Source: Bolinopsis microptera
Taxonomy: Eukaryota > Ctenophora > Tentaculata > Lobata > Bolinopsidae
Direction of reading: 5' to 3'
Assembly (NCBI RefSeq): GCF_026151205.1
Contig: NC_087072.1
Coordinates: forward strand, 20,860,103-20,924,102
Length of the DNA stretch: 64,000 bases
Shown here: positions 1 through 62,872 of the stretch, in pieces
Numbering within the stretch: the stretch's first letter is position 1
How the letters are laid out: each line of letters starts with the position of its first letter
The notes under the pieces: generated by a model
The model's input: only the letters and a program-made list of their open reading frames with translations
What the model was told of the DNA's origin: nothing
Databases searched by the model: none
Program-made: the position numbers and the translations under genes

Positions 1-157
1 AACTTTCAAGTTAACTTTAAATCCTTATAACATGATTGTATGGGTTATTTTATGGGTGTACCGAAGAAAAACAGTAAAAAACCAACAGAAGTTTTTTCAC
101 GATATTTATAACTAAACGTTCATTAATAAAATCTCGGCTTCAACGAGACAGACATTT

Positions 158-3100
158 TCAAAATCTGGTATCTCGATAGACCGCTTCCCTTATTCGTGTG
201 TATTCCGCTTTAACCCCACTTAACTGAAGTTCCTGAAACGGGTAAATATCTTAGCAAAAACGTTGCCTAACTATTACATGTTCATAGCCAGTCATTATTA
301 CGTGTTCATAGCCAGTCATCGGAGTAAGATATATATACGCATATATTTATCCGTGGATAAACGATAACAGTTAATATGAGAGGGGAAGTAGGATGCTTTT
401 AAAAACACTTACTGCTATCAGCTGAGGGAGAGCAGCAACGAGGTATTCAGACGCCAACTCCGAATTAATTTTAATACCAGTAAAAACGTTGGACAAAATA
501 TCAGCGTCAGTGAAACTCTCTATATCCTTGTCAGAAAGCATGATTCCACACTCCTGAATGATAAATAATACCTGATAATTAATAAGAGAGGGGAAAATAA
601 ATAAAAATTGGGCCCAGATAATGGGTTTTCTGTCTGCTAATTTGTATAGCTATGATTGGGTTGTTTTTGTTTGCTAATTTATCTGATTGCGTTAGCCAAC
701 ACTGTTGACGGTTTTTAGTAAAGAATAATTCATTGGATCTAATCAAACTAACCTCTCCGCCGTACTCTTCTGGGCACGAATACACATGCTCAGAGATTGT
801 TCCTGATGGAAGTTCCACGTTGCGCTGCTTTCTTCCCCTGAACAGATTTATTAGATTATTAGATATGCACTTAAAGAAGCCTCATGTAGCCTCCAGGCTC
901 GAAAAACCCCGAAAAACCCCGACACACCCCGAAAAACCCCGACAAACCCCGACAAACCCCGACACACCCCGACAAACCCTGACAAACCCCGACAAACCCC
1001 GACGTGTCGAGATCTGTCGTATCATGTCGGGCCAATCGGCTACACGAGGCCTTTAAAGACATCCTATATGTTGTTTCTATTCTTGAATGTTTTCAGTAAT
1101 TTCGTATTGCAGTTTACTATAAATTTATAATCCTACCTCATATTGTTATGGTTCTCCCTGAATTCGTCGAGATAACGTTCGACAACAGGTATGAACACAC
1201 CAGCAATTAAATCCCTGTCATACTCGCAACTTGAATCATACAGACCGTCTTGATCAATCTCTCTAAGTACGTGACGAAAACCATCACAAACCTTTTCGCG
1301 GACCTGTCAGCATTTTTTACTTGGAAAATGGGGACAAACTATGGTATAAGTAAGGAAACGGACTTTGCTTTGCCTATGTTTGTTTCTTGTCGACAAATAA
1401 TTGTTTTGAAAACGGTTGTGACCTAAGAAGTGAGCAAGATCTAACCAGATTTAGCAAACATTTCACTCCAACTATTGCCTACCTGCCTCCACAATCGTTC
1501 TATTTTGTTGGCAGTAGAAGGACCAAGTATCGTTGTAATCTCCTTGTCAACATTTTTCAGTTGCAATAGAGTTTTCTGAAAAACAAGAGTGAAAACAAGC
1601 AGAATCCTGCGGTCTAACACCATAGCTTTAAGGTACGTATTGAAATTTAATATGGAAACAGCATTTGTAGCAGACATGGCACAGGGACAGTAGGCAGTAG
1701 AATATATAAAAAACGCCTTGGAAAATTAACTCACGTGTACAGCTGCAGCATGGACGGTCTCAGTTCCTTTGTCAAATCGAAGCATTTGCGGTAAAACTCT
1801 AGATTCCAGCAGATGGTCAAACAAAATACGTCCAATAACTTCACTGTCTCTATTAGACCGCCCAATGTACAAGAAGATGATTTTCCTACAGTAAGTATCA
1901 AGGGCCCTGTGAAAAATTAAAAAGAATTAATAACGCTAGCATATCGCCCGACCTAAGAACCAACTTTATAAATATAATGAAATCTTATCATGATGATCAG
2001 CAATGTTTAAATTATGAATTACTTTAATTTTAAGCATCCCTCCCCATCACCTCTTAATAAAATACACTGCTAAAAATACATTGTTTAACTGTTTCATACT
2101 CAACAGCTATAAATTCACCCTTCTCCCAAAAGCCTTCCTCCGAGCTTTTCTCCCTGTTACATGATAGATAAGATTTGTTTGATTTGTTCAAGCTCCCCGT
2201 CAAGATTGAAGGGCCTTAATTTTGCTCACATCATTTCTACAGTCTAAAACTTATATCATAGTTTGGTTATATTCTGTGTTTAAGCCCCTTGCCAAAATTA
2301 AAAGATCGGTACCACGCTATAGTCTATACACTCTACAGGGGCAGAACACCAAATAGGTGCTACAGTATAGTGATATAACTGATTGGCTGATAAGGGGGAA
2401 ATCTTATCCAATGCTGTGCTCCCATACTGTCACATGATGCACTCAATCTCATCACGTAGTGTGTGCGCTCATGTCACGTGACAATATTCAGTCAGGTGCA
2501 CCGTGCACACACTCAATCATGGTTATACAACATACACATGATATGCGCCCAGAAATGCCCAGCAGGGTTATCTTTCTAGCTGATGTTGACAGTGGGATTA
2601 CCCGTTTAATCCCGCCCCTTATGAGCCATCCCGCCCCTTTCAAAACATCATGAAGGAATTTATAAGTTGTGGGATGGTATAAAAACAATTAGAGCTCAGC
2701 AATGGCATGTTTTCACACAAACAAGAAATGTAACATACCCATATATTTTGAGGTCGAATTGGCAGTTGGCATCCCCACTTAACTTGTCATGGCCATCCAG
2801 ACTCCATAAGTAGTTTGGCCCCTTGCTGAAGAAGGTCTTCTTAGGCCTCTTATTCTTGAACTTTGGAGTGCGCATAACAACACCTTGTGGATCAACTAAC
2901 CTTATGTATTCATAACATCATCTCTCGATACGAAGAGGCCTTGAGACCTGCAACAAGGAACAGTGAATATACTGAATATTGATAAATAAGGTGTATATAT
3001 ACACATATATGCATTATACCGTTCCTTAACATCGTGATGCCATTGTTTTAATACTACTTCAAGGCGCCTCAATTATTATAAAAATGTTTACTCCTTTTTT

Positions 3101-3982
3101 CATTGACGTGTTTAAATATTTTAACTTGTTACATTAACACTACAAATTTGCCCTTTTTAGTGTACCTTAGTTTTTCAGTCACATCCCGGTATCCTAATTG
3201 GCCCGAACTTTCGTTAACAACATTCTGTACCGCCGTCAGCAAAGTATGATCATCAACATCATTGTGTCGTTTAATGTTCCAGTGATTCAGCATTCTGCAA
3301 AGCACTTATTAGTGAAACTTTTAGTTTTACTGAAAATGTTTTGTTTTACTCAATCAATCCATGTGTATTGTGTACACATATGCACAACAGATTTTTGTTT
3401 TTAATATGTGGTCATTTGGTAAAGTATAAGTTTCGGTGTTAATCTTTAGTTCAAATACCAGTGAGGTAGATCGTAGAGGGCTGAGGGAGTGGAAGGTTTT
3501 TCGTCAGAAATATGAAAATTCAAAACCCATTCGATATGTTCATAGTAACTTGACTAGACTTAAACGCACTTGTGTGCTCATGAGTGTAATGAAGGAGGGT
3601 CCAATAAGGGTTAAATACACGGCGCAATTCTGCAACGTTTTACGTTGACATAGCAAAACTGAACTGCACATTGAATGAGGGTCCAATAGGGGCGCGAGCA
3701 ATTTTGCTATGTAAATATAACAAAATTGCGCCCCGCATTAGACCCTCGTTCATTGCATCTATGAGCACACATGCAGTAATGAACAGTAAACACGATTTCC
3801 ATTAATTTACAATGTTCATTGTCTGCATTATACCTTTTTACAGTGCGTTCTGAATAAGCCCTGTAGTTGGGGAACTTCTTTGGCAGGAGTGAAGTAATCT
3901 CGCTGCAAGTATAGTTGGATGCTCTTGAAGCCTCCAAAAAGTGTCTCAGATCTTCGTCTTCCATCCATGCTGGACCATCCAT
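158..3982 (-). CDS. DDE integrase-core protein, left copy (9 exons, frameshift in exon 3)
   Basis: Mirror copy of the gene at 9123-12716. Exons on the minus strand: 3834-3982, 3166-3294, 2739-2947, 1735-1906, 1483-1575, 1137-1303, 753-837, 413-553 and 158-232 (stop). All introns are GT-AG and the phases agree. The catalytic positions are kept: Asp in SLDGHDKL, Asp in LRFDKGTE, Glu in NKIERLWR. Exon 3 carries the same one-base deletion as the right copy, after ...RDDVMN. Exon 8 has one extra codon (PQLIA against PQIA), an in-frame indel. Exon 7 has Ser for Pro. The intron between exons 6 and 7 holds the MITE-like insert. The family match (integrase-core proteins with an N-terminal helical region, seen in many animals) is from memory. 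The copy may be a pseudogene because of the frameshift. Confidence 0.8.
871..1057. mobile_element. MITE-like insertion present only in left arm
   Basis: The right arm has an uninterrupted site (its GCACCTAAAGACC region), while the left arm has about 187 extra bases here. The ends are imperfect terminal inverted repeats of about 20 bp: TTAAAGAAGCCTCATGTAGCC at the left, matched by the reverse complement of GGCTACACGAGGCCTTTAAA at the right. TTAAAG is found at both edges as a possible target duplication. The interior is mostly a decamer array. It lies in the intron between exons 6 and 7 of the left integrase gene. Confidence 0.65.
899..1004. repeat. Decamer minisatellite CCCCGACAAA / CCCCGAAAAA
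   Basis: About ten tandem 10-bp units of the form CCCCGAMAMA fill the inside of the MITE-like insert. The reading frames over it (871-1062 minus, 733-1056 plus) are products of this repeat and not genes. Confidence 0.9.
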
Positions 3983-4704
3983 GACATATACCTATATTTT
4001 ATGTTCTCATGTTGTGAAATTATTCATGGGACAAAGCAATATCACAAATTACTTTGCAATAATGTCCTAGTTGCACACAATATTTTGATGATATTCAACT
4101 TCATTATTTGTTATTTGGTAATGCAGAAGGTATTTTAACAGTATTAATACCCTACTATATAATGAAGATCATCAAAAGGCACTGAAAGAAAAATTTTTAT
4201 TTTTTTGAAAGAAAAATTTTTATTTACCACAAAACAATCAAAACATAATGTTATATTCATAAATAAAATCAAATTTCAATTTCAACCACATATACAGTAC
4301 GCCGCGCACACAGCCACTATTTTGGTGGGCGTTCTTATAGTTCTACTGTTCCATATCTTCCAAAGATGGATACTAGGCTCAGGTTACTTGGCTCAGATTT
4401 CGTGTCTTCTGATGCTTTGAGAGGGCCTGACATGGTTCAGATCTCGAGCCTTGGGTCGGATCTCGATGTTTGAGGATCGTATCCTTTTCGGCACGCTTTG
4501 TAAACACATAAGCTTGTTAGATCAGATCTTGCGAAAGGCACCTGAGACCTTGTCATCTATTAGTACGCTTGTTATACAGATCGGATCAATACATAAGAAA
4601 GAGAGATGGTGGTCGCAGAATCTAATTATGATTGTCTACAGCAAGTACATCCGCTGACAAAGAGGAGCTCAACTACTTCTGGAGTCTGGACACAGACGGT
4701 GTCC

Positions 4705-5715
4705 TTTTTTTTTTATTTGAAAATTCAACTAATCATTATATATATAAATCAAGCGTTACATTTCAGCCATGCAAAATTACAATGACATATTTTGATTACT
4801 AAATGATAAATGGTACTGCAATATAAGTTGCTTAATGTTTGGCCGGATGACAACTAACGAGAAAAATAAACTTGATTATATAATAATTAATTCGGCTGAA
4901 CCAACACATAGCAAGAGCCACATTAACGTTGGGGCCGTCTACCAAATTTGAATGACAAACATTAACAAGAAATCAAACATATCATAAATAATTATAAGGA
5001 TTTTGTTCATTACAATTCCGTCACAACTGATAAAGAAAAAAGAAAAGGACAAGCAGATAGGAAATTGGACGGACAGAATTGTAACCAACAAAAACAAATT
5101 TCTGAGACTCATAAGACTGATGAGCTAATCTGGCCAGACTGTATCGGCAGCCCAGAGGTACTTGATCAGTTTGGCCTTAAAAGTAGAAATCCGCTCTGAC
5201 TGCCGGATACATACTGGTAGACTATTCCATTTCAGCATAGATCTATGAAAAAAGCTATTTCGGAAGGCATCCGAGCAGGGCACAGTGGTACTCATGTAAG
5301 TTGAAGTATCCGACATATCAATTATTTGAGCATTGTGCCTAGTGTATCGGGTGCCCTCTGGACGGCATAGGACTATATATGTAGGGAGCGAAACTGGAAT
5401 TATGCTATTCACTATTTTATAGAAGGTCATAAGATCGTTATAAATAAACTTCTGTTTAACAGGGAGAATATTTAGTTTCTTTTGCTCAGTAGCAAGTTTA
5501 TCGTCATTATAACTGGAGTAAGGTTCACCATTGATCCATTTAATAGCCCTCTTTTGGAGAAAGGATCGAGATACCCTACTACCTCTACCTGGAGATGCCA
5601 GAGGTACAGAATCAAGAAATGTCCTGCTCATGTAATCCTTGACCATGGAGATCAGTCCTTGGCCAGCGGTGCCAAACCTCATTCCCACGACCCTGACAAC
5701 TTAAAGTTAAACTAG
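4705..5715 (-). mobile_element. 3' end of a non-LTR retrotransposon (reverse transcriptase C-terminal tail)
   Basis: The minus-strand frame 5688-5125 encodes a tail typical of LINE ORF2 proteins: RNSFFHRSMLKWNSLP followed by FKAKLIKYLW, a motif common just after the reverse transcriptase domain. The element ends on the minus strand in a short A run (4705-4714 on plus is T10), as expected for a target-primed insertion. The 5' side is truncated near 5715. The right arm keeps only the 5' part (about 8231-8390) and has lost the rest. The right-arm reading frame at 8305-8499 is a chimera across that deletion. Confidence 0.75.
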
Positions 5716-5748
5716 AGCGGTATTTGGAAACCTGTTTATCTTTTAGTT

Positions 5749-5985
5749 ATTTCTAACTGACGATTTAAAAAAAAAAAAAAAAAAAAGAAAAAAAGGGGGG
5801 ACCCCCAACCCATGTAGCTGAGACACCTCACAGCAAGTAGACCAAAGTGGCTCTTGCTTGTGAAAGGTGCGTCAACTACCCGCCGAAGCGGTGGGTTGGG
5901 AGTCCCCCCTGGGATCATTTTGTCCGTAAAATTATATACAACATAAAATAGTACAGTAAAATATCAAAATTTCTAACTGACGATT
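5749..5985. mobile_element. 203-bp insert flanked by 17-bp direct repeats (left arm)
   Basis: ATTTCTAACTGACGATT stands at 5749-5765 and again at 5969-5985, as a target-site duplication would. Between them lies an A run of about 20 bases, then a block bounded by near-inverted copies of GGGGGACCCCCAACCCA (about 5797 and about 5890-5910). The A run is next to the left repeat on the plus strand, the unexpected side for a poly-A tail if the insert reads left to right. The same insert is mirrored in the right arm. Confidence 0.6.
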
Positions 5986-6465
5986 GGGTTCAGTTGTCCT
6001 TTCAAAGTTAATTAGGTAAACTGATTGGGTATTTAATTATTTTCCCAAGCTACCCTGTCTAGGAAAAGTCCAAATTGGGTTCAGTTGTCCGGTAGCCTTT
6101 GAGGAGCTATAAAATAATGACATAATACATCTTACAATATCATACATTTAAAACACCATGAGGAGAAGTTAAACATAACTTTCGAGATACAAATCGAAAA
6201 GTTCAAACATCCAGACAAGATATTACTTACTATTAAGTATATGTTCTCCCAAAAAGTCTTAACGGCCCTCTAACACCATGCTAGTAGCCAGCTGTTACGG
6301 TAATAGCCCAGCCCTCTTACACCCCTCTAATAGCCATAACACCACCAGTAGTTATCAGGTATAATCCACGATTCTGCCTTCACTGATTATCAACCAGTGT
6401 CCAAAATTATTTAATAAAGGATATTAACATCACACCATTTATCCCCAATCGACGAAGATCATATT

Positions 6466-6510
6466 CCAAATGTCTTCAAAAACTACAGACCAGTGTCAAA
6501 CCTTGAGAAA
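6466..6510 (+). mobile_element. Reverse transcriptase fragment (left arm)
   Basis: A short plus-strand frame reads FKNYRPVSNLEK. NYRPVSNL is the hallmark start of the palm region in LINE reverse transcriptases. The frame is broken just after, and the continuation (LIERK...) is in another frame, so this is a decayed fragment. It lies in opposite orientation to the LINE tail at 4705-5715. Confidence 0.55.
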
Positions 6511-6953
6511 ATTGATTGAAAGAAAAGGCTACAGGAGCAATGAGCATGTAATGATAATCTCAATTTTCCAGACTCTACTTCTGGACAATATGCTTACAAA
6601 AGAGATCATAAATGGGTACTCCACATCAAAGAGAATACATGAAAACATAATTAGTAATCAAATTACACATCAAAAAGATAACTAAATAGGGTGAAAAGGA
6701 GTTTCGAAATGCAACAATAATACTGAAAAACAACCTAGGTATTTTTGTGAAAATATGACAGTATCTGCTTTAGCGCTCGATTTTCATACCACGGTGTAAA
6801 TTTTCGAAAATATGCGCGGCGCGCCTAAAATTTTGGTTCTATTAAAAAAAAATTTTTTGGTCAAAATTATATTTAATATATTGAAATTAGTTGTTATTAC
6901 AGATATATGTTAAAATATTTCCAAAATATAGAATGTAAGTACCCAAAATAAAA

Positions 6954-6992
6954 TGCGCGCAAAAAAGTCAAAATTTTAACACTTTTTTGGAT
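6954..6992. other. Palindrome centre
   Basis: The 39 bases between the arms are themselves an imperfect inverted repeat. A run AAAAAAGT and its partner ACTTTTTT flank a core AAAATTTT centred near 6973.5. The two arms therefore meet with almost no unpaired spacer, and single-stranded DNA here would fold into a very long hairpin. Confidence 0.85.
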
Positions 6993-7435
6993 TTTTATTT
7001 TGGGTACTTATATTCTATATTTTGGAAATATTTTAACATATATCTGTAATAACAACTAATTTCAATATATTAAATATAATTTTGACCAAAAAATTTATTT
7101 TTAATAGAACCAAAATTTTAGGCGCGCCGCGCATATTTTCGAAAATTTACACCGTGGTATGAAAATCGAGCGCTAAAGCAGATACTGTCATATTTTCACA
7201 AAAATACCTAGGTTGTTTTTTAGTATTATTGTTGCATTTCGAAACTCCTTTTCACCCTATTTAGTTATCTTTTTGATGTGTAATTTGATTACTTATTATG
7301 TTTTCATGTATTCTCTTTGATGTGGAGTACCCATTTATGATCTCTTTTGTAAGCATATTGTCCAGAAGTAGAGTCTGGAAAATTGAGATTATCATTACAT
7401 GCTCATTGCTCCTGTAGCCTTTTCTTTCAATCAAT

Positions 7436-7480
7436 TTTCTCAAGGTTTTACACTGGTCTGTAGTTTTTGAAGACATTTGG
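7436..7480 (-). mobile_element. Reverse transcriptase fragment (right arm)
   Basis: Mirror copy of 6466-6510 encoding the same NYRPVSNL-type motif with one or two base changes. The overlapping 71-residue frame at 7261-7476 is mostly out of frame with it. Confidence 0.5.
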
Positions 7481-7960
7481 AATATGATCTTCGTCGATTG
7501 GGGATAAATGGTGTGATGTTAATATCCTTTATTAAATAATTTTGGACACTGGTTGATAATCAGTGAAGGCAGAATCGTGGATTATACCTGATAACTACTG
7601 GTGGTGTTATGGCTATTAGAGGGGTGTAAGAGGGCTGGGCTATTACCGTAACAGCTGGCTACTAGCATGGTGTTAGAGGGCCGTTAAGACTTTTTGGGAG
7701 CACATATACTTAATAGTAAGTAATATCTTGTCTGGATGTTTGAACTTTTCGATTTGTATCTCGAAAGTTATGTTTAACTTCTCCTCATGGTGTTTTAAAT
7801 GTATGATATTGTAAGATGTATTATGTCATTATTTTATAGCTCCTCAAAGGCTACCGGACAACTGAACCCAATTTGGACTTTTCCTAGACAGGGTAGCTTG
7901 GGAAAATAATTAAATACCCAATCAGTTTACCTAATTAACTTTGAAAGGACAACTGAACCC

Positions 7961-8197
7961 AATCGTCAGTTAGAAATTTTGATATTTTACTGTACTATTT
8001 TATGTTGTATATAATTTTACGGACAAAATGATCCCAGGGGGGACTCCCAACCCACCGCTTCGGCGGGTAGTTGACGCACCTTTCACAAGCAAGAGCCACT
8101 TTGGTCTACTTGCTGTGAGGTGTCTCAGCTACATGGGTTGGGGGTCCCCCCTTTTTTTCTTTTTTTTTTTTTTTTTTTTTAAATCGTCAGTTAGAAA
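7961..8197. mobile_element. Mirror copy of the 203-bp insert (right arm)
   Basis: Reverse complement of 5749-5985, with the same 17-bp direct repeats and the same long T run (about 8152-8180). Its presence in both arms shows that the insertion preceded the inverted duplication. Confidence 0.6.
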
Positions 8198-8230
8198 TAA
8201 CTAAAAGATAAACAGGTTTCCAAATACCGC

Positions 8231-8390
8231 TCTAGTTTAACTTTAAGTTGTCAGGGTCGTGGGAATGAGGTTTGGCACCGCTGGCCAAGGACTGATCTCC
8301 ATGGTCAAGGATTACATGAGCAGGACATTTCTTGATTCTGTACCTCTGGCATCTCCAGGTAGAGGTAGTAGGGTATCTCGATCCTTTCTC
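8231..8390 (+). mobile_element. Right-arm remnant of the same retrotransposon
   Basis: This mirrors left-arm 5557-5715. Homology breaks at about 8390, and ten bases (8391-8400, CGGGTGTTGA) with no counterpart precede the resumed homology at GGACACCGTCTG. This looks like a deletion of 851 bp with a filler, leaving a fragment with no functional frame. Confidence 0.7.
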
Positions 8391-9122
8391 CGGGTGTTGA
8401 GGACACCGTCTGTGTCCAGACTCCAGAAGTAGTTGAGCTCCTCTTTGTCAGCGGATGTACTTGCTGAAGACAATCATAATTAGATTCTGCGACCACCATC
8501 TCTCTTTCTTATGTATTGATCCGATCTGTATAACAAGCGTACTAATAGATGACAAGGTCTCAGGTGCCTTTCGCAAGATCTGATCTAACAAGCTTATGTG
8601 TTTACAAAGCGTGCCGAAAAGGATACGATCCTCAAACATCGAGATCCGACCCAAGGCTCGAGATCTGAACCATGTCAGGCCCTCTCAAAGCATCAGAAGA
8701 CACGAAATCTGAGCCAAGTAACCTGAGCCTAGTATCCATCTTTGGAAGATATGGAACAGTAGAACTATAAGAACGCCCACCAAAATAGTGGCTGTGTGCG
8801 CGGCGTACTGTATATGTGGTTGAAATTGAAATTTGATTTTATTTATGAATATAACATTATGTTTTGATTGTTTTGTGGTAAATAAAAATTTTTCTTTCAA
8901 AAAAATAAAAATTTTTCTTTCAGTGCCTTTTGATGATCTTCATTATATAGTAGGGTATTAATACTGTTAAAATACCTTCTGCATTACCAAATAACAAATA
9001 ATGAAGTTGAATATCATCAAAATATTGTGTGCAACTAGGACATTATTGCAAAGTAATTTGTGATATTGCTTTGTCCCATGAATAATTTCACAACATGAGA
9101 ACATAAAATATAGGTATATGTC

Positions 9123-12100
9123 ATGGATGGTCCAGCATGGATGGGAGACGAAGATCTGAGACACTTTTTGGAGGCTTCAAGAGCATCCAACTATACTTGC
9201 AGCGAGATTACTTCACTCCTGCCAAAGAAGTTCCCCAACTACAGGGCTTATTCAGAACGCACTGTAAAAAGGTATAATGCAGACAATGAACATTGTAAAT
9301 TAATGGAAATCGTGTTTACTGTTCATTACTGCATGTGTGCTCATAGATGCAATGAACGAGGGTCTAATGCGGGGCGCAATTTTGTTATATTTACATAGCA
9401 AAATTGCTCGCGCCCCTATTGGACCCTCATTCAATGTGCAGTTCAGTTTTGCTATGTCAACGTAAAACGTTGCAGAATTGCGCCGTGTATTTAACCCTTA
9501 TTGGACCCTCCTTCATTACACTCATGAGCACACAAGTGCGTTTAAGTCTAGTCAAGTTACTATGAACATATCGAATGGGTTTTGAATTTTCATATTTCTG
9601 ACGAAAAACCTTCCACTCCCTCAGCCCTCTACGATCTACCTCACTGGTATTTGAACTAAAGATTAACACCGAAACTTATACTTTACCAAATGACCACATA
9701 TTAAAAACAAAAATCTGTTGTGCATATGTGTACACAATACACATGGATTGATTGAGTAAAACAAAACATTTTCAGTAAAACTAAAAGTTTCACTAATAAG
9801 TGCTTTGCAGAATGCTGAATCACTGGAACATTAAACGACACAATGATGTTGATGATCATACTTTGCTGACGGCGGTACAGAATGTTGTTAACGAAAGTTC
9901 GGGCCAATTAGGATACCGGGATGTGACTGAAAAACTAAGGTACACTAAAAAGGGCAAATTTGTAGTGTTAATGTAACAAGTTAAAATATTTAAACACGTC
10001 AATGAAAAAAGGAGTAAACATTTTTATAATAATTGAGGCGCCTTGAAGTAGTATTAAAACAATGGCATCACGATGTTAAGGAACGGTATAATGCATATAT
10101 GTGTATATATACACCTTATTTATCAATATTCAGTATATTCACTGTTCCTTGTTGCAGGTCTCAAGGCCTCTTCGTATCGAGAGATGATGTTATGAATACA
10201 TAAGGTTAGTTGATCCACAAGGTGTTGTTATGCGCACTCCAAAGTTCAAGAATAAGAGGCCTAAGAAGACCTTCTTCAGCAAGGGGCCAAACTACTTATG
10301 GAGTCTGGATGGCCATGACAAGTTAAGTGGGGATGCCAACTGCCAATTCGACCTCAAAATATATGGGTATGTTACATTTCTTGTTTGTGTGAAAACATGC
10401 CATTGCTGAGCTCTAATTGTTTTTATACCATCCCACAACTTATAAATTCCTTCATGATGTTTTGAAAGGGGCGGGATGGCTCATAAGGGGCGGGATTAAA
10501 CGGGTAATCCCACTGTCAACATCAGCTAGAAAGATAACCCTGCTGGGCATTTCTGGGCGCATATCATGTGTATGTTGTATAACCATGATTGAGTGTGTGC
10601 ACGGTGCACCTGACTGAATATTGTCACGTGACATGAGCGCACACACTACGTGATGAGATTGAGTGCATCATGTGACAGTATGGGAGCACAGCATTGGATA
10701 AGATTTCCCCCTTATCAGCCAATCAGTTATATCACTATACTGTAGCACCTATTTGGTGTTCTGCCCCTGTAGAGTGTATAGACTATAGCGTGGTACCGAT
10801 CTTTTAATTTTGGCAAGGGGCTTAAACACAGAATATAACCAAACTATGATATAAGTTTTAGACTGTAGAAATGATGTGAGCAAAATTAAGGCCCTTCAAT
10901 CTTGACGGGGAGCTTGAACAAATCAAACAAATCTTATCTATCATGTAACAGGGAGAAAAGCTCGGAGGAAGGCTTTTGGGAGAAGGGTGAATTTATAGCT
11001 GTTGAGTATGAAACAGTTAAACAATGTATTTTTAGCAGTGTATTTTATTAAGAGGTGATGGGGAGGGATGCTTAAAATTAAAGTAATTCATAATTTAAAC
11101 ATTGCTGATCATCATGATAAGATTTCATTATATTTATAAAGTTGGTTCTTAGGTCGGGCGATATGCTAGCGTTATTAATTCTTTTTAATTTTTCACAGGG
11201 CCCTTGATACTTACTGTAGGAAAATCATCTTCTTGTACATTGGGCGGTCTAATAGAGACAGTGAAGTTATTGGACGTATTTTGTTTGACCATCTGCTGGA
11301 ATCTAGAGTTTTACCGCAAATGCTTCGATTTGACAAAGGAACTGAGACCGTCCATGCTGCAGCTGTACACGTGAGTTAATTTTCCAAGGCGTTTTTTATA
11401 TATTCTACTGCCTACTGTCCCTGTGCCATGTCTGCTACAAATGCTGTTTCCATATTAAATTTCAATACGTACCTTAAAGCTATGGTGTTAGACCGCAGGA
11501 TTCTGTTTGTTTTCACTCTTGTTTTTCAGAAAACTCTTTTGCAACTGAAAAATGTTGACAAGGAGATTACAACGATACTTGGTCCTTCTACTGCCAACAA
11601 AATAGAACGATTGTGGAGGCAGGTAGGCAATAGTTGGAGTGAAATGTTTGCTTAATCTGGTTAGATATTGCTCACTTCAATAAACAATTATTTTTCAACA
11701 AAAAACAAACATAGGAAAAGCAAAGTCCGTTTCCTTACTTATACCATAGTTTGTCCCGATTTTCCAAGTAAAAAATGCTGACAGGTCCGCGAAAAGGTTT
11801 GTGATGGTTTTCGTCACGTACTTAGAGAGATTGATCAAGACGGTCTGTATGATTCAAGTTGCCAGTATGACAGGGATTTAATTGCTGGTGTGTTCATACC
11901 TGTTGTCGAACGTTATCTCGACGAATTCAGGGAGAACCATAACAATATGAGGTAGGATTATAAATTTTAAATGTAAAGTGCAATACGAAATTACTGAATA
12001 CATTCAAGAATAGAAACAACATAGGTCTTTAGGTGCATATATAATTATCTAATAAATCTGTTCAGGGGAAGAAAGCAGCGCAATGTGGAACTTCCATCAG

Positions 12101-12716
12101 GAACAATCCCTGAGCATGTGTATTCGTGCCCAGAAGAGTACGGCGGAGAGGTAAGTTCGATTAGATCAAATGAATTATTCTTTACTAAATACCGTCAACA
12201 GTATTGGCTAACGCAATCAGATAAATTAGCAAACAAAAACAACCCAATTATAGCTATACAAATTAGAAGACTGAAAACCCATTATCTGGGCCCAATTTTT
12301 ATCAGGCATTATTTATCATTCAGGAGTGTGGAATCATGCTTTCTGAAAAGGATATAGAGAGTTTCACTGACGCTGATATTTTGTCCAACGTTTTTACTGG
12401 TATTAAAATTAATTCGGAGTTGGTGTCTGAATACCTCGTTGCTGCTCTCCCTCAGATAGCAGTAAGTGTTTTTAAAAGCATCCTACTTTCCCTCTCATAT
12501 TAACTGTTATCGTTTATCCACGGATAAATATATGCGTATATATATCTTACTCCGATGACTGGCTATGAACACGTAATAATGACTGGCTATGAACATGTAA
12601 TAGTTAGGCAACGTTTTTGCTAAGATATTTACCCGTTTCAGGAACTTCAGTTAAGTGGGGTTAAAGCGGAATACACACGAATAAGGGAAGCGGTCTATCG
12701 AGATACCAGATTTTGA
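9123..12716 (+). CDS. DDE integrase-core protein, right copy (9 exons, frameshift in exon 3)
   Basis: Exons: 9123-9271 (ATG), 9811-9939, 10158-10366, 11199-11370, 11530-11622, 11785-11951, 12066-12150, 12324-12461 and 12642-12716 (TGA). Every junction is GT-AG and the phases chain correctly to about 404 residues. The one break is in exon 3, where one base is missing between ...SRDDVMN and IRLVDPQGV. The N-terminal exons give a helical DNA-binding-like region (motifs ERTVKR and GQLGYRDVTEKLR). Exon 3 then gives GPNYLWSLDGHDKL, exon 4 LRFDKGTET and exon 5 NKIERLWR, which together supply an Asp/Asp/Glu triad. This is the layout of the rve-like integrase-core family that animals carry as transposon-derived genes. 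The role is probably DNA strand transfer, or a domesticated derivative. The frameshift is seen in both copies, so it is either old or a shared sequence error. Confidence 0.85.
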
Positions 12717-12877
12717 AAATGTCTGTCTCGTTGAAGCCGAGATTTTATTAATGAACGTTTAGTTATAAATATCGTGAAAAAACTTCAGTTGGTTTTTTAC
12801 TGTTTTTCTTCGGTACACCCATAAAATAACCCATTAATACAATCATATTATAAGGATTTAAAGTTAACTTGAAAGTT

Positions 12878-14300
12878 TGAATGTTACACTCCGTAAATTA
12901 TAAAGTTGGTATGATTCTTCTCTAAGGATTACAATACGCAGTAAGTTATTATGATAAAATGTTTGTTTCACTGCTAACATCATCCTACTACAATGTTTTG
13001 TTAAATTATAACATATACTTGGTTGTTTTATATATGGGTCTGATTATTAAATTATTGACTTTGATGACATTTTTGTTTCACTGCTAACATCATCCTACAA
13101 AATATAAAAAGCCCAAGTAATCTCCCAACTTTGAACACAAATTTATATAGAGATTTGTCCGGCCAATGGGGCCGGGCAAGATGCTGAACTCAATCTCAGA
13201 ACCTAATGTCTGCAGTCGTTTTCAAGCACGCTTAAATCACACGTCAAATACAGGAGTTTATCGGTATGCCATATATATTTCACCGGAGGACAATAATAGG
13301 TGGATAATAATAACTGGATCAGACTACACGTGAGGGAACAATAAGCACGCGTTAGCGCGATCGCCATTTGGTACAATTGTAGACATCTGCGCGCGCGCGC
13401 AACGTACGTTCTTTGTGGCGCGCAGTGAGGACTGCTGATGGCACATTTCGGCCATATGGACCGATTTCATTTTTGTTTTGAATTTTTTTGGTTTTCTTTA
13501 AATTTTTTTTTGTTTTTTTTTGTTTTGGTTTTTTATTGTTTTAAATTGTTTTTTTTTTGGTTTTTTTTTTTGTTTTTTTTAGTTTAGTTTTTTTTTGTTT
13601 TTTTAAAATTTATTTTTGGTTTATTTTTTTAAAGTTTGGTTATTTTTTGGTTTTTTTTGGTTTTCTAAATTTATTTTGAAATAATTTACAATGACCCACC
13701 TCGGCCACCATAGTCACCGGTTCTATCTCTTGGTGATTTCAACATTTTTTAATTATTTAAATCGACTGCCAGTATATGAGTATAAGGTTATATAAGACTT
13801 ATTTTTGAATTCTTATCACACACGTATTGAAACAAACTTGTATCAAACCATAATGTAATTATCATACAGCACGGCTAGCGTATCATGAGAACAAGAATTA
13901 ACGACAAATCATAAGAGGGACTCTCACCAGCGTCAGATTCAGAAAAAAAGTTTTAAAAGAAGTTAAAGAAACTCTTATTTCAAGGTACCTAAACTTAGAA
14001 AGTTAGAAGTTAGAACTGAAGAAGGGTTTCAACCAGAGAAGCACCACGCTAGATACAGTCCTCACTGCGCAAAATATCAAGTTTTAAATGGATGTGGGCG
14101 TAGGTAACTCCGTGTGACGTAAAACAACCACCTTCAATTAGACCTGATTCGGAATCCTCCATCACTCCTGCCAGCAGCCGTTGCTATTTGTCTGCAGTAC
14201 CTGCTGTAAAAGTGGAGCTGCTTTGTATTTACCAAGGGGGCCTCTGGGGGATCTGCTTTATAAGCTGTACATTGCATTGTAGGTTTGTACGACGCGACGT
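12878..14300. other. Gene-free stretch with low-complexity T/G tract
   Basis: No supported gene. A 27-bp direct repeat (TTTGTTTCACTGCTAACATC and following bases) occurs at about 12962 and 13071. A (GC)n run stands at about 13390-13402. From about 13480 to 13680 the plus strand is almost entirely T with G, a low-complexity tract. Confidence 0.8.
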
Positions 14301-14302
14301 AC

Positions 14303-14590
14303 GTGCAGCATCTACTTTATTAGGTGCAGTATGTGTTGTGTATTACAGGTGCAGCATCTTCTTTATTAGGTGCAGTATATGTTGTGTATTACAGGTGCAG
14401 CATCTTCTTTATTAGGTGCAGTATATGTTGTGTATTACAGTTGCATCATCTTCTTTATTAGGTGCAGTATATGTTGTGTATTACAGGTGCAGCATCTTCT
14501 TTATTAGGTGCAGTATATGTTGTGTATTACAGTTGCATCATCTTCTTTATTAGGTGCAGTATATATGATGTGACCTACACATTACAGGTG
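14303..14590. repeat. 46-bp minisatellite, about 6 copies
   Basis: Units start near 14303, 14349, 14395, 14441, 14487 and 14533. Each contains GTGCAGCATCTTCTTTATTA followed by a block beginning GGTGCAGTATATGTTG. The unit itself holds two related half-units beginning GGTGCAG. The reading frame 14188-14415 is a by-product. Confidence 0.9.
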
Positions 14591-15043: not shown

Positions 15044-15997
15044 GACACCATCACAAATATTATAAAATTATTCAAACAATATACACATAATATAGCAATG
15101 ACCCTATATAAAATCAACCCTTAAAGAATTCCAAAAAATTCCCTTAACAATCAAAAATTACCCTTGGCCTTGTGGCTCCAAGTTAAGATCTAGACTGTTT
15201 ATATCAACAATGTTTTTTCTTGCACCCCTGTCTCCACGGAGAGAAATCACTGTTGTTCTAAGGATTTCAAAGCGAAGGCGCTTTCTGATGTATCCTACAG
15301 CGTCTGAGTACCTCTGGCCAGTGTGGTACTCCATCTTACTGGCCAGCTTCTTGACCAGTCTCTCAGCTTCACCACCCATTCCACCAGAAGTCGAGAACAC
15401 TAAAGGTGTGAAGCTTCCTTTCTCCACTTCAAGAACCCTTGCATTGTAACATCGCTTTTTCTCATTTTCATGGGAAAGGTACATTGCTGGTATCGATTTG
15501 CTTGCATTGGAGGGGGCTGGGGCATGAAATACCCTTACATCAAAAAATGCCCTCTCTGAAGTATTCCAAATCGATCTTGCAGAAATGTCCAGCCTGGCTT
15601 GGTCTCCTAGGACTGTTCCCCTTGGTAATTCTAGACCATCAACTGGTAGAAGAACTGGCTCCGTCTGCACATCCTTGCATTTCACAGTTCTCATTAGTTC
15701 TGCAAAGGTGTCTCTCAGCGAGTTGTGCCGCAGTGACACATATCCACCAAGTTTGCAGATGAGCGCATGGTTTGCTGAGTATTTCTGGCCACACGTACAT
15801 GTCTTAGGGCAGTCCTTTAAGTTCAGGTTGTATCTGAGAGCTATTGCATCTGAGAACTGTTGTTTATTCATCAGATATCCATACTCTTTTAAAGGTAGTG
15901 CTGTTAGCCAAGCACTTGCCCCTTTCTCAGCCGCTAGTTGGAACATCAACTTTGCCAGTGGTGTTGACTCGAGCTCCTGGCGACACCATCACAAATA
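15044..15997 (-). mobile_element. 5'-truncated retrotransposon with 16-bp target-site duplication
   Basis: GACACCATCACAAATA stands at 15044-15059 and 15982-15997, flanking an insert of about 920 bp. The insert is the 3' end of a reverse transcriptase element read on the minus strand, truncated at its 5' end as is usual for target-primed retrotransposition. The same family occurs, longer but noisily sequenced, in each unit of the array at 41.5-44.9 and 54.8-58.3 kb. This copy is the clean reference for the 3' end. Confidence 0.85.
15158..15981 (-). CDS. Retrotransposon ORF, C-terminal zinc/nuclease-like domain
   Basis: An open frame without its own start runs from the truncation point to a stop at 15158. 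It contains a Cys/His cluster (CTCGQKYSANHALIC), then RHNSLRD, ARLDI, FFDVRVF and HENEKKR, and later FTPLVFSTSGGMGGEA. Similar C-terminal regions follow YADD reverse transcriptases in elements common in cnidarians and sponges (from memory). The order Cys/His cluster, R-L-D, D-V-R, K resembles the PD-(D/E)XK restriction-like endonuclease of R2/NeSL-type elements. The nuclease assignment is inference. The reverse transcriptase domain is missing from this copy. Confidence 0.75.
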
Positions 15998-26478: not shown

Positions 26479-36183
<9,705 letters not shown>

Positions 36184-41481: not shown

Positions 41482-44400
41482 TTTTTTTTTAAAAATAAAA
41501 TATTCAAACAATATACACTAATATAGCAATGACCCTATATAAAAATCAACCCTTTAAGAATTCAAAAAATTCCCATAACAATCAAAAATTTTACCCTTGT
41601 CTTGTGGCTCAATTAAGATCTAGAACTGTTAATAACTACAAAGTATTTTCTCGCACCTCTGACTCACGGAGAGACATCACTGGTTGTTCTGAGGATTTCA
41701 AAGCGAGAGGCGCTTTCTTATGTATCCTACAGCGTCTTGAAGAACCTCTGGCCATGTGGTACGCCATCTTACTGGGGCCAGCTTCTTTGACCAGTCACGT
41801 CAGCTTCACCACCCATTCCACCAGAAGTCGAAACACTAAAGGTGTGAAGCTTCCTTTCTCCACCACTTCAAGAACCCTTGCATTGTAACAAATCGCATTT
41901 TCTCATTTTTCATGGAACAGTACTTTGCTGGTATCGGTTTGCTTGCATTGGAGGTGGCTGGGGCATGAAATACCTTACATCAAAAAAATGCCCTCATTCT
42001 GAAGCATTCCAAATCGACCTTGCAGAAATGTCCCGCCGGCTTGGTCTCCTAGGACTGTTCCCTTTGGTAACGTAGACCATCACTGGAAGAAAACTGGCTC
42101 ATTCTGCACATCCTTGCATTTCACAGTTCATCATTAGTTCTGCAAAGTTCTCTCAGCTAGTTTGTGCCGCATGACACATATCCACCAAGTTTGCATATGA
42201 GCGCAATTGTGGGGCATGGTTTGCTGATATTTCTGTACCACACTACATGTTTTAGGAGGGCAGTCCTATAAGTCCAGGTTGTATCTGAGAGCTATGCATC
42301 TGAGTAACTGTGTTTAATCATCAGATACCATACCTTTTAAAGGTAGTGCTGTTAACCAAGCACTTGCGCCCTTTCTCAGACGCTAGTTGGAACATCAACT
42401 TTGCCATGGTGTTGACTCGAGCTCCTGGCGTATTTCTCTGCTTGTTTTTGTCGATTAAAATAGATTTCCGTTCTGTCCGTTATCTTCATTTTCACTCCTT
42501 TACATGACTCCATTCCTCTGTGTAGGTTGTCTAGTCTGCTTGAGAAATAGCTTCTTTAAGGGTTTTTTGTGCTCTACAGAGAAATGTACTCTCGGTCTGC
42601 CATTTCCATCATAACTGGTATACCCAATCCTCCATATCTTGTGGTAGAGCCAATATGTTCCTTAGTTCATCAGTGCAGCTAAAACAGCCTGTTACTGATA
42701 GCTGGGATAAACCATCACGTGTTTAACTTGGTTTCTAGAGGAGTGAGCCTATCTGCCAACTCCTGGGTAGTTCCCGCACACACATCAGTTCCATCTTTTA
42801 CTAAGGGGCCCAAACATGTATGCACGTGATGCTATTTGAGGTTACTCTTGATGCTGATAATCATTTAAACTGTTTAAGATCACAACACCATTCTTGAACT
42901 TTTTCCTCAATGAAAAGCCTCGTTTCCTGGTCTGTTCCGATGAAGGCTCTGCCAGATATCGTCGAACAATGCTTGTCACATTGACATCTGGGAATATGGT
43001 TCTTTGCGCCTTCTCTCGTGCTCAGGCTTGACAATCACCCATGTTTTAGAAGATTTTAGGGTTTCATCCAAAGAGTGGTCTTTAATACAGAGGTTTAGTC
43101 CCACCACCTCCTTATTTCCCTCCAGTTTTTCCCCAGCAGCAGAGTCATCAGCATACCAGATTTAGTCACCTTTCTCTCAATGTTTCCTGCATCAATCAAT
43201 GTATTTTACCCAGAGGCATAAATAAATCCCATGGCAGGCTGGATCACCATTGTGTGGTTCCCTTCTCACTAAAAAGATTGCTCATCTCCTCGCTACAATA
43301 GAACATCTAGCATGCATTCCTGTAGGTGTTCATAAAGTCAGTAGCAACATCTGGACAAACGATGTTCATGTTTGTTGAGAGCAGCCTCTCGGTTCAGCAA
43401 GTTTGAATGCATCTCTGCATCCACTAAAGATGATCGCTTCAGTTTCAGGTCTTCAAGCAGTCCCTTGCAGCAATGGACTGCTGCTTCCACTCCTCCCTGA
43501 AGACCAGCACAAACTTTGAAAAGGAGCAGTGGCTCCAACCAGATCTTTCTGTAGAGGGTCATTATGTTTTCGCCCCTATTAATCCTTCTAAGACTTCACC
43601 TATGCCTACTGGCCGTGACTCCAGGCATTTTTATCCGGGGGACAAGTCGACATGCTTCATTTGAGGTCAACAGCGTGATCCAAATTCCGGACACATAGTT
43701 TCCTTGCTATCCCTGCTATGGCATTACATATATCCTCACACTCTTACCAAACTGTTTAGAACACATGTCTTCATCTACATGCTCCGCATCCCATCCCTGA
43801 AGGCCCTGCAGCCCCTGTACCTCTTTGCTCTTGTCTTACGATTCCCACGTCAATACTGTCGAATATAACCGGCTCTACCCTCCTCACTGGTCCACTCGCA
43901 GACACTTCCCTTGGATGCAGGTGATGTTCTTGGGATGCTCTCCTTTCATGCACTTTTAATCACATCTTGAGTAGTTTCAAGAATCCCGGTGGCATTTTCA
44001 CCAATCCACCCATTGCTGCACTGACTTTTCCTTTCATCATGAATCGAGTGAAGACTCTCCTCAAACATGGCCATGTTTATTTTTCCCCCTTATCCCATCT
44101 CCTCTGAATCTCCTGTCCTTCTCGCAGCAGCTCTTCTAGCTTACCTGCCTGCCACAAAGCAAGTCTTCTCTTCAAAACTTCAGTGGTTCCTTTGATTTGA
44201 CCTCTTGGAGGTTTCTGCATACAGAGTGATGCATAATCATCAAAAGGGGTTGTCACTGATTCCATAGCACTGCCTGATGTGAAATTGTCGGCCACTTTAG
44301 TCATTTCAGTCGATGAACTGCTTTCCCTGCAGCCCTGAGGGAAGCAAAAATATGTTTCTTCTCCATTAACTATAACACCATATGATTTCCTCACATTTTT

Positions 44401-52400: not shown

Positions 52401-55400
52401 ATCTTAGTACTGTTTTATATAGTAAATAATTAATAATAAGAAAGTTATCATAAACAGTTCCAATCGAAGTAATCTAAGAAGCCTACATTTTGAGAATGTC
52501 ATGGAAGAGTCATCCAACATGAAATAAAATCTGTGTCCAAATGGTGCTCATATCAAAAGATATATGAAGTAAAAGTTGAACTCCAAACAGAGGCATTGTA
52601 ACTCCGAATTATAAACTGAACAGACACAAATTGTCATGTACTACAAACTCAATACTACAAAAATACCTCAAAAAACTGTCCAAAGTTTCCATATTGACAG
52701 TTATGTTATCTTTAACAGTATTATTGCAGCCTGATCAGACAAATATAATCAAGAGGGAGTCTTTTAAAAAGAAGAACCTTGGTGTAATAGCTCCTCCAGT
52801 ACTGACTTCAGTCCATGTCACCGTGTATGTTGTGTTCACATGTTATGACAAACATGGGGTTAAACATGGTAGACTAATGTGACTGAAGTATGTCCGACAG
52901 TGTAATCGAACAGCTCGTTTTTTTTCTCTCCAATCTCGTCAAACCTAGCACAGAATGAGATCTATTAAGGGAATTAAGAACATAAGCCAAACAGTTGTGT
53001 AAAAAAATTTAAAAATTGAGAAATATTAAATTATGAATGGCTTGGTTTACTGCTCAAAACTAGGATACAAAATACTTATACTACATACCTGACAAATCTG
53101 TGTTTTATTAAGACAACAAAAGACATTGGTTATCTGGCGATTGTCAATCCAGTGCGTTCAAATGATTTCTTTCATACCAATTTTGACTGTTTTTAAAGGA
53201 TTTGATACTGTATTGGCACAAATGTGGCCAAATAAATCATCCACTAAAGATAACTTACCATTTGATGAACTCCATTTTGTCATTGCTTCCCCTAAAAGTA
53301 AAAAAATGTAATTGACCAAAATTGGAATAATTTCATTCAAAGTTGAACTAGCATCGAGCATGGAATGAAAAGGAATATTCCAGGTCTTCCATTCTTCACA
53401 TCAGCTTCACCACGCTGATCACTCAGTCACCTCACAATTATGTTACTTCATCACCCTTCACCTACATTATTTAGCTAATCGCAGATTTATAATCGTCGGT
53501 ATACTAAGTTGTTTATGACCACATCCGAAGGATGGGTTGGGGGGGGGGGGGGGAAAAAAAAAAAAATTAAAAGGAATGTTCCCAAAATAAGAGGTCAATA
53601 TTTCCTGGACAACTACCTCTCTGTCATGACATACTCGACAACCGACACATCTCCACCATCGTCAACTTTGCAAACCACACTAAATGGTTAATAGTGCCCA
53701 GAGAGCTGGACCAGAACTGGTTGTAACATAGCAACTACTTACACGTCGTCTTAGTCGCCTCTCTCTTCACACCGCCACCACTGAGCGTTCATCTATGGAC
53801 TACACCCCAGCAACACTTACCACATCATTTACTAAACAATCTGATTCCACCGGCATCCTCCCATAAGACTGCTGCCATACCCCATGAGTAGGCAAAAGCA
53901 TCCGACATGCAACCTCTCCGTGGGCCAACCAGGCCCAGCATAATCTTAAATTTTTTTAAATCCGAAGGTTGATGAACCTTGGGAAGTGAATTAGAGACGT
54001 CATATCCATACCTTATAACCCGCTCCTATGACCCCGAAAAACTATTTTCCAAACAAGATTAGTCTGTCCTAGACATACTGTATCATAACAAACTTACCAC
54101 AAATAAGTATAATATTCTTTTGAACTGCCACTCAAGTTTTCTTCAACCTCAACGTTTCTTCAGTGAAACGATTAATACATATACATCTTTATCCACTGTC
54201 TTAAGTGACCACAGTGCCTTAAATCTCTTTCATAGCCGATCACCAATCGAGAATGATTAACACATGACTATTTTCAGGAAGTGGAGCCATGGAAGAGGAA
54301 AACAGCCGGCCATCTGAAATTCCTGAACGAGGGACTTGGACACGGACAGGATCTGAGCTGATTAGTGAAACCAGGGCAAACAAAAAGTTTCGTGAGCTTT
54401 TTAAGAAATTGTGAGTTCAAACCCCCTCTCAGAGCAAGAAGATTAGATGGAGAATGTTCGGGTCATATTTTACGTAGTGGTTGACAAAACACCGGCCAAT
54501 GTATCTCTTTCTTTGCTGTATCTAAGAATGAAAAATTAAAAGGGCTATGCAGTATAAGATGTCCCGGCAAAGCAAACCTTAAATCTTGATGGTTGACCTT
54601 AAAGATCGTAATTTGTTATGATAACATTGAGAAAATTGAATGAAAAAAAGGATATTGCCACTGTTTACAATTTTGGAGGAACCTTTGTAGTTGGTTGCAC
54701 AGTTAACTGGTGTGAAGATGATTTAACCCATGTAAATTCGGTATACATACTCAAGTTCGACACCTACTCTAGTCGACACGTACTGTATATCAACAAACCC
54801 TAAGGTTTTTTTTTAAAAAAAACAAAATATTCCCAAACAATATACACATAATTTAGCAAATGACACTATAGTAAATCAAACCCATTAAGAATTTCAAAAA
54901 ATTCCTTAACAATCAAAAAATTTTTTACCCTTGGACTTGTGGCACCAAGATAAGATCTAGACGTTTATATCTAAATGTTTTTTCTCGCACCTCTGTCCTC
55001 CACGGAAGAAAAAGGAAAAACATTTTTTCCCACTTGTGGGTATGTTCTAGGATTTCAAAGCGAAGTGCGCTTTCTTATGTATCCTACAAGCGTCTGAGTA
55101 CCCTCTTGCCATGTGGTACTTCGCATCTTACTGGCCAGCTTCTTGACCAGTCTCCAGGCTTCAACCACCCATATCACCAGAATTCGAGAACACAAGGTGT
55201 GAAGGCTTCCTTTTCTCCACTCCCCCCCCCCCCCCCCCCCCCCCCCAATTCAAGAACCCTTGCAAAGTTGTAACATATCGCTTTCTCTCATTTTCATGGA
55301 CAGTTACATTGCTTGTATCGGTATTTGCTTGCATTGGAGGGGGCTGGGCATGAAATACCCTTACATACCAAAAAAATGCCCTCTCTGAAGCATTCCAAAT

Positions 55401-61400: not shown

Positions 61401-62872
61401 GTAATTAGAGTCTACGATACAGGGGAATCGCGCATTCGAGTGCGTCGGGTCATACAACGTATGACAATAAAGCTCTTACAGCTTTGTATATTGTAAGTTT
61501 ACAACCTACAGGACGAGCGCCGAGCTGGGGGGGACTCGTCGAACGGACCAGTATATGGAATCAATATTTTACGAGTATCACCCGTTAATTAGTAATACAA
61601 ATTTAGTAAAACAAATTTAAATTTTGGTTGTATTTATTAAATAACAACAAAACATATCATAAGTCAATAAAATAAGAGCCGCGCGTTGGTTACTGCCTCA
61701 GTATGGTGAATACTTTAAAAGCTTGAAAGGTGCCCCTGCGCAATTACATAACATTATGCGGGCGATCACATGATCAACGAGGACCGGTGAGCGCAATTTA
61801 AATTTAAACTTTTCTAGAACTTCGTAACATCACTACAGTTACTCATGCTGTTTGATATAGGAGTGCGATTGTCATGTATTTCATTCATTCATAACTTAAT
61901 CGTTTTAAAGCTGTAATATTTAGGAGCTCACTATGTTTTTTGAACTATGAAAGCAGAACTGTAAAAATATTGGACAATATACCGACGACAATACCCAAGA
62001 CCCGAGTTGCCGCATTGACTTTCGTCCGGATCCGTTTTTTACGAGGCGTAATCACCAGTTACTCAGCTTCATGTATATCTGATAATATTTTGTTTGATCT
62101 CTACAACATTCTTGTAAGTTGGAGTGTCCGTAATTATTATAGAAACCAGCCACCTCCGCATTACATATCTTTTGTATGCCAGGTCTTTTATAAAATCTTA
62201 ATCATATAATAAGAATAGAACCCAATAGTCTAAGATGAAACGGTATATCTTTTAGCTCATCGTTATTAAAATACTAATGTAATGAATTAATCAAGTAATG
62301 TTCCCTTCCAACACAAATAAACAACAAACAAATGCTTTGCTCCACCGCAGTGGTGACGGCAATCGTAGGGCTATGCAGTTGGTTCAGATAACTCTCACCA
62401 CGACGACAGCGTCGAGAAATTATCAAATGAGCATTGCGCATACTGACACATTTTATATTTTAAATATTTTACAAGCAACTGGTTCCCTTTTGCCAGCCGT
62501 TTTTAGTCCATGTACGTCCGTTTCTGGTCTCATGCAGACCATGCGCAAACTAAAATTTTGTTTATATGCCAACATGATTATTTGAATCCGTCGTACACCC
62601 CTATCATGTGCACGAATTGGGTTTTGTGCGAAAGTCACAAATAACGAAGCCGCGCACTCGTGCGCGGCAGGGCTACAAAATGAAACAAAGATTTGGACTA
62701 GTAGAAGATTAATGAAATATAAAAACCTCAGAATTCAATCCAGTTTAATAAATATTTTTAAAATAACTTCACATCTGCTAAGAAATTTTATTTTAATTTT
62801 GAATAAGTTTAGGCTCGCGCTGACATTATAATAAGTGACAGAGCACGCCGCGCCAGATATGATAGAAATTAT
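49453..62872. repeat. Tandem array unit 2 (~13.4 kb)
   Basis: Head-to-tail repeat of unit 1 in the same orientation with the same gene order (for example the retrotransposon at about 54.8-58.3 kb). It carries copy-specific homopolymer runs missing in unit 1: G and A runs near 53537-53567, C run 55220-55246 and C runs 59193-59250. The number of indels against unit 1 is high. Confidence 0.9.
54801..58300 (-). mobile_element. Long copy of the YADD reverse transcriptase retrotransposon, unit 2
   Basis: Tandem counterpart of 41482-44900. The C-terminal region is at about 54900-55810, interrupted by a C run at 55220-55246. The reverse transcriptase region is around 56500-56900 and the N-terminal region is near 57500-57780. 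Frame breaks are even more frequent than in unit 1. Confidence 0.7.

Follow-up and report, generated by a model that had tools for sequence, protein, structure and literature searches.

Palindromic copies of an IS3EU/GingerRoot-type transposon in Bolinopsis microptera, with a transposase gene in each arm and a probable fold-back origin

A 64,000-nucleotide stretch of the genome of the ctenophore Bolinopsis microptera (assembly GCF_026151205.1, contig NC_087072.1, positions 20,860,103 to 20,924,102 of the forward strand; hereafter the window) opens with two integrase-like genes facing away from each other in a large inverted repeat, which raises the question of whether this structure is real and how it arose. 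Based on the comparisons reported here, we consider it quite probable that an IS3EU/GingerRoot-type DNA transposon was turned into a palindrome by fold-back and then moved in this form, its arms being partly kept alike by gene conversion.

The palindromic element covers window 1–13712, as delimited by outer ends common to the copies on contigs C1 (the present one), C4 and C5 and by a matching flanking duplication. The whole unit is 14,550 bp long (C1:20859265-20873814), starts 838 bases left of the window and stops at window 13712. An earlier reading made from the letters alone (the sequence-only reading) had set its limits at 1–12877, which these ends correct; its description of two nearly identical inverted arms with hardly any spacer agrees with self-BLAST, in which the arms match at 99.07% over 3,641 bp and 98.94% over 2,842 bp around the centre and, closer to the outer ends, at 97.8% (582 bp) and 95.3% (277 bp). 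Self-BLAST and arm alignment (81 differences in 6,731 aligned bases) place the left arm, as far as it lies in the window, at 1–6973 on the minus strand and the right arm at 6974–13712 on the plus strand. The arms meet at approx. 6973, within an asymmetric hairpin (6954–6992) which is presumably the original fold-back junction and has identical letters in the C5 copy. That the arms differ by real indels was rightly noted in the earlier reading, e.g., an insert of ~0.85 kb is present in the left arm only. Read inwards, both outer ends are TATGGTGGCCGAGG, giving TATGG..CCATA termini (right outer end GGCCACCATA, window 13703–13712), and both flanks carry the 7-bp target-site duplication GTCACCG (right copy 13713–13719, left copy outside the window), the left and right flanks being different DNA. 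A plain segmental inverted duplication was ruled out, since the limits of the unit are transposon ends.

Searches of the 264.65-Mb genome, whose repeat counts are lower bounds, returned further copies. A 2-kb piece of the arm matches 7 places, namely inverted pairs in C1, C4 and C5 and a single match in C10, and an 80-base end, with 11 of 11 candidates scored, has 11 matching places, which form pairs in C1, C4, C5, C10 and C11 and leave one solo end in C6. Besides C1, the paired ends enclose 15,809 bp in C4, 18,592 bp in C5 and 3,091 bp in C11, each with a 6-bp duplication, and 18,150 bp in C10 with a 7-bp duplication. C1, C4 and C5, on three contigs, are end-to-end palindromes apart from arm-specific inserts. 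C10 is not palindromic: it has inverted ends of ~1.2 kb, one transposase on the plus strand and an alpha-kinase frame on the minus strand, and it was ruled out as a single-arm fragment because the end search located its other end. The ends of C11, a short relative, match over ~1.1 kb (90.3%), and no transposase match was obtained in this copy. Three palindromes on three contigs, with the same transposon ends and their own target-site duplications, support the real inverted duplication with two transposase genes that the sequence-only reading had offered as one of its two options. In the left arm of C5, a 3.9-kb insertion found in this arm only (~C5:1342792-1346732) consists mostly of degenerate tandem repeats.

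By its ends, duplications, integrase core and kinase companion in C10, the element would be a DNA transposon of the IS3EU/GingerRoot type. In the literature, TA..TA ends are given as invariable in IS3EU families and a duplication length of 6 bp as usual (PMC10045372), and TET-bearing IS3EU elements of rust fungi are said to end in TAYGG..CCRTA (PMC12730594), a pattern which the TATGG..CCATA ends of C1, C4, C5, C10 and C11 fit. The likeness further includes 6-bp duplications in three of the five copies (C4, C5 and C11), an IS3/IS481-like integrase core, and the alpha-kinase frame of C10 (PF02816, E 2.1e-22); in TET-bearing IS3EU families, transposase and alpha-kinase lie in opposite orientations, the kinase not being universal (PMC10045372, PMC12730594). 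In contrast to IS3EU, the palindromic copies here carry two transposase genes and no kinase (tblastn gave no alpha-kinase match in the C1, C4 and C5 stretches), and the duplications of C1 and C10 are 7 bp. Of five other rva_4 loci, four exceed the cut-off, and each of these four is accompanied by an alpha-kinase match no more than 13 kb away on its contig; in three of the cases, kinase and rva_4 locus share a strand. Two of the rva_4 loci (C7, C195) score equally and may be one duplicated locus. Six more alpha-kinase fragments, 82–96% identical to the C10 frame (C8:1589527, C8:1604207, C7:6199231, C7:6299705, C12:9167003 and C152:10444), are perhaps remnants of other kinase-bearing relatives. 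A search of the open-access literature for an alpha-kinase together with a DNA transposon and an integrase found nothing. Ginger1 and Ginger2 do not fit, as the duplications given for them are 4 (4–5) bp (PMC10045372) and those found here 6–7 bp. Polinton/Maverick, which has 6-bp duplications in common with IS3EU, was set aside since ends and transposase fit IS3EU. Polinton/Maverick elements carry DNA polymerase and capsid genes beside the integrase.

The transposase gene was modeled by hand in the right arm of C5 (C5_R), where it has nine exons, 1,218 coding bases, 405 residues and GT-AG at 8 of 8 introns. This exon model maps onto both window arms: on the minus strand of the left arm at 158–3982 (exons 3982–3834, 3294–3166, 2947–2739, 1906–1735, 1575–1483, 1303–1137, 837–753, 553–413 and 232–158) and on the plus strand of the right arm at 9123–12716 (exons 9123–9271, 9811–9939, 10158–10366, 11199–11370, 11530–11622, 11785–11951, 12066–12150, 12324–12461 and 12642–12716). 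Of the two complete nine-exon genes facing outwards that had been claimed, orientation and exon number hold and completeness does not, since exon 3 has lost the same single base in both (near 2905 on the left, near 10200 on the right), which breaks the frames. The frame is open in three of the six palindrome arms; one C4 arm has lost the splice donor of exon 6, in one open arm, arginine replaces tryptophan at residue 141, three positions before what is presumably the first catalytic aspartate. Exon 1 of the C10 gene lacks ten bases. The protein matches the integrase core PF24764 (E 2.1e-23, residues 135–312), with acidic residues D144, D208 and E246 in motifs picked by eye, and weakly PF00665 and HTH_21, both under the cut-off (HTH_21 with 18 bits). 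A structure-database search with the transposase gave no match at E values up to 1. Between C10 and C5_R, 10 of 1,208 exon bases differ and 60 of 2,332 intron bases (Fisher p 2.9e-4); because the exons differ less than the introns, the gene was probably under constraint in the past. The codon comparison of the same pair (4 synonymous and 6 other changes) has too few changes to inform, and the contrast of exons with introns is the sounder test.

The direction of change can be read at the palindrome centre, which interrupts a dispersed repeat. This repeat runs through without interruption in C10 and at all 22 further loci that were tested (L035-L056; the repeat search had scored 40 of 644 candidates), and because of this the non-palindromic arrangement is, judging by the sequences compared, the older one. 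The repeat copies (e.g., C13:13447279) start at a sharp common edge. At the turn point, the sequence is TAAAAATCCAAAAAAGTG in 20 of these 22 loci and GGTCCAAAAAAGTG in C10. In C1 and C5, the other strand shows the mirror arm CCCAAAATAAAA joined directly to ATCCAAAAAAGTG, an asymmetric junction which is identical in both copies. The joined sequences apparently share a 5-bp microhomology, TAAAA, provided that the element had the common form of the repeat at that time. Further, a short stretch of old sequence beyond the stem persists as an asymmetry in the C1/C5 junction. Just such a junction would be expected if a 3′ end had folded on itself with 9 bp in the stem, a mismatch at the shoulder and 5 bp at the priming site. 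Palindromic duplication has been described to arise in this way, with copying that starts from a folded end next to short inverted repeats (PMC7999016).

We propose that an ordinary C10-like element, with inverted ends of ~1.2 kb, an alpha-kinase on one side and a transposase on the other, suffered a break close to the middle. The break would have fallen next to a short imperfect inverted repeat, within the copy of the dispersed repeat borne by the element. On the transposase half, the 3′ end would then have folded back via the 9-bp stem, primed at TAAAA and copied this half outwards, giving a product with two transposase genes and two identical outer ends, the kinase half being lost. Because both outer ends are normal transposon ends, the transposase could have moved the palindrome as such, which would account for three copies with different 6–7 bp duplications. 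Subsequently, the arms within each copy may have been partly kept alike by arm-to-arm gene conversion, spreading inserts and harmful changes alike.

The arm alignment, polarized with C10, contains 109 variable sites in 6,092 usable columns. Derived substitutions private to one copy and present in both its arms number 26 in C1, 4 in C4 and 1 in C5, and 6 sites are common to all four C4 and C5 arms. Single-arm sites amount to 30 in C1_R, 18 in C1_L and 13 in one C4 or C5 arm; 11 sites show a different pattern or offer no usable C10 base. Among these 11 are two at which C4_L, C4_R and C5_L share the derived base and C5_R keeps the C10 state; therefore, differences between the arms predate the separation of C4 and C5. 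Larger changes also occur in pairs. A 220-bp retroposon with a poly-T end and a 17-bp duplication sits in both C1 arms (window 5766–5985 and 7961–8181), with an exact empty site in C4_L, C4_R, C5_L, C5_R and C10_R; a 519-bp insert is found in both C4 arms only; and the exon-3 deletion is seen only in C1. The ~0.85 kb insert of C1_L (window 4706–5555), which ends in poly-A and looks LINE-derived by eye, is uncopied to the other arm; loss of the sequence from the right arm was ruled out as an explanation, since the six other arms aligned are all without the insert. In a tree, the arms of C1 (100) and of C4 (96) group by copy. Given one origin, the occurrence of copy-specific retroposon, deletion, inserts and substitutions in both arms points to arm-to-arm gene conversion, which has been reported for a human Y-chromosome palindrome (PMC3723533); a transfer of inserts between Galileo ends has been suggested as well (PMC4168063). 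Separately, alignment columns 5961–7177 of the right C1 arm hold most private C1_R substitutions, as if derived from another, more diverged copy. We favor a single fold-back event with subsequent movement as a palindrome, because the C1/C5 junction is identical though C5 is elsewhere nearest to C4, and because the arms differed before the C4/C5 split.

Several observations weigh against this account. The junction hairpin is short and no more stable than random sequence of the same composition would lead one to expect (z −0.58; 55 of 200 shuffles fold as well or better), and its 9-bp stem compares with 42–229 bp in the experiments cited by PMC7999016. C10 reads GGTCC at the junction, not TAAAAATCC, so that the microhomology relies on the repeat loci and not on C10. 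The C4 centre is symmetric, unlike those of C1 and C5, and we read its symmetric shoulders as later conversion. The C5 arms do not group in the tree, nor do those of C1 in the middle segment (994 columns), where the C1_R branch is 2.3%. Finally, target-site duplications alone do not reveal whether a palindrome moved as such or formed where it now lies, and the movement is deduced from sequence, no excision or transposition event having been observed.

The last point leads to the rival that deserves most attention, recurrent formation in place, by which C1, C4 and C5 would be ordinary elements, each folded back at the same hairpin, with arms alike simply because the palindromes are young. The changes specific to C1 and C4 in both arms would then require no gene conversion, the deviating C4 centre would fit, and the flanking duplications are compatible with either reading. 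Nevertheless, two or three independent events would be required, C1 and C5 share an identical asymmetric junction despite C5 being nearest to C4 elsewhere, and the C5 arms differ at two sites in a way common to C4, which makes this course unlikely in our view.

We give far less credence to a collision, in which two ordinary elements inserted head to head, a deletion removed the sequence between them, and the composite moved by its outer ends. This would likewise yield two transposase genes and two equal outer ends, and bacterial composite transposons are described as arising from paired elements (PMC9587614). However, on two elements of ~18 kb each, the breaks would need to lie no more than a few tens of bases away from the same hairpin, and inner ends are missing: the end search, with all candidates scored, gave only the two outer ends in each of C1, C4 and C5. 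Slightly less probable still is an assembly artifact or a join of two haplotypes. Long palindromes are hard to sequence (PMC4057610), and the case made here is built on assembled sequence and not on reads; yet each of three loci has one duplication on two different flanks, and the arms have different inserts. The head-to-head join of haplotypes, the other option of the sequence-only reading, does not agree with different flanks sharing one 7-bp duplication and with the same structure at two other loci, and a simple fold-back read is ruled out by three loci with flanking duplications of their own.

Inverted arms make up most of C1, C4 and C5, so that the structural criterion of foldback-type transposons applies to them. 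Foldback-type transposons and IS3EU are both already known. Galileo, Tm1 and Tetris share the very long inverted arms (PMC4168063, PMC3169594, PMC4079207), and in Galileo part of the transposase frame was recruited into the ends and inserts are suggested to have been transferred from end to end (PMC4168063). These three belong to P or Mutator-like groups, in contrast to the present element, and the foldback structure is suggested there to accompany transposase loss and end elongation, whereas here a whole transposase gene lies in both arms. KolobokP and bacterial composite transposons resemble it in an unusual multi-part architecture bounded by duplications; KolobokP differs in that its long repeats are direct, with short inverted ends of their own, and in that it has just one transposase, located internally (PMC9587614). 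Arm-to-arm conversion is a feature shared with Y-chromosome palindromes (PMC3723533), but, unlike these and unlike palindromes made by fold-back priming, the unit here is dispersed and bounded by transposon ends. No palindromic transposon with a whole transposase gene per arm was found in the passages covered by our search of the open-access literature, a weak claim of absence.

Outside the element, window 36184–64000 holds a direct duplication with a period of ~13.3 kb and ~84–85% identity, a third copy beginning near 62864. Self-comparison revealed tandem repeat arrays at window 14303–14564 (~46 bp period), 29927–30494, 32290–33013 (~55 bp) and 33310–33522 (6 bp). A dispersed sequence at 15062–15988, with relatives at 41495–42430 and 54824–55816, has an open frame of 276 codons which by eye resembles the end of a retrotransposon protein.

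The origin of the long inverted arms of foldback transposons has so far mostly been inferred. With a non-palindromic form, palindromes and a junction readable to the base in one genome, fold-back priming as a source of such transposons becomes testable, and in a case where the whole transposase gene has been doubled and not lost. Both an insert and a disabling deletion seem to have been spread by copying between the arms, and whether the companion alpha-kinase is needed can be asked here. Tentatively, one may go further and envisage a two-headed lineage: after one fold-back, the palindrome, accounting for three of the four large copies, would have become the prevailing large form in this genome, moving by two identical ends without a kinase in cis, its arms serving as templates for each other. 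If this is true, every insertion would bring a second transposase gene.

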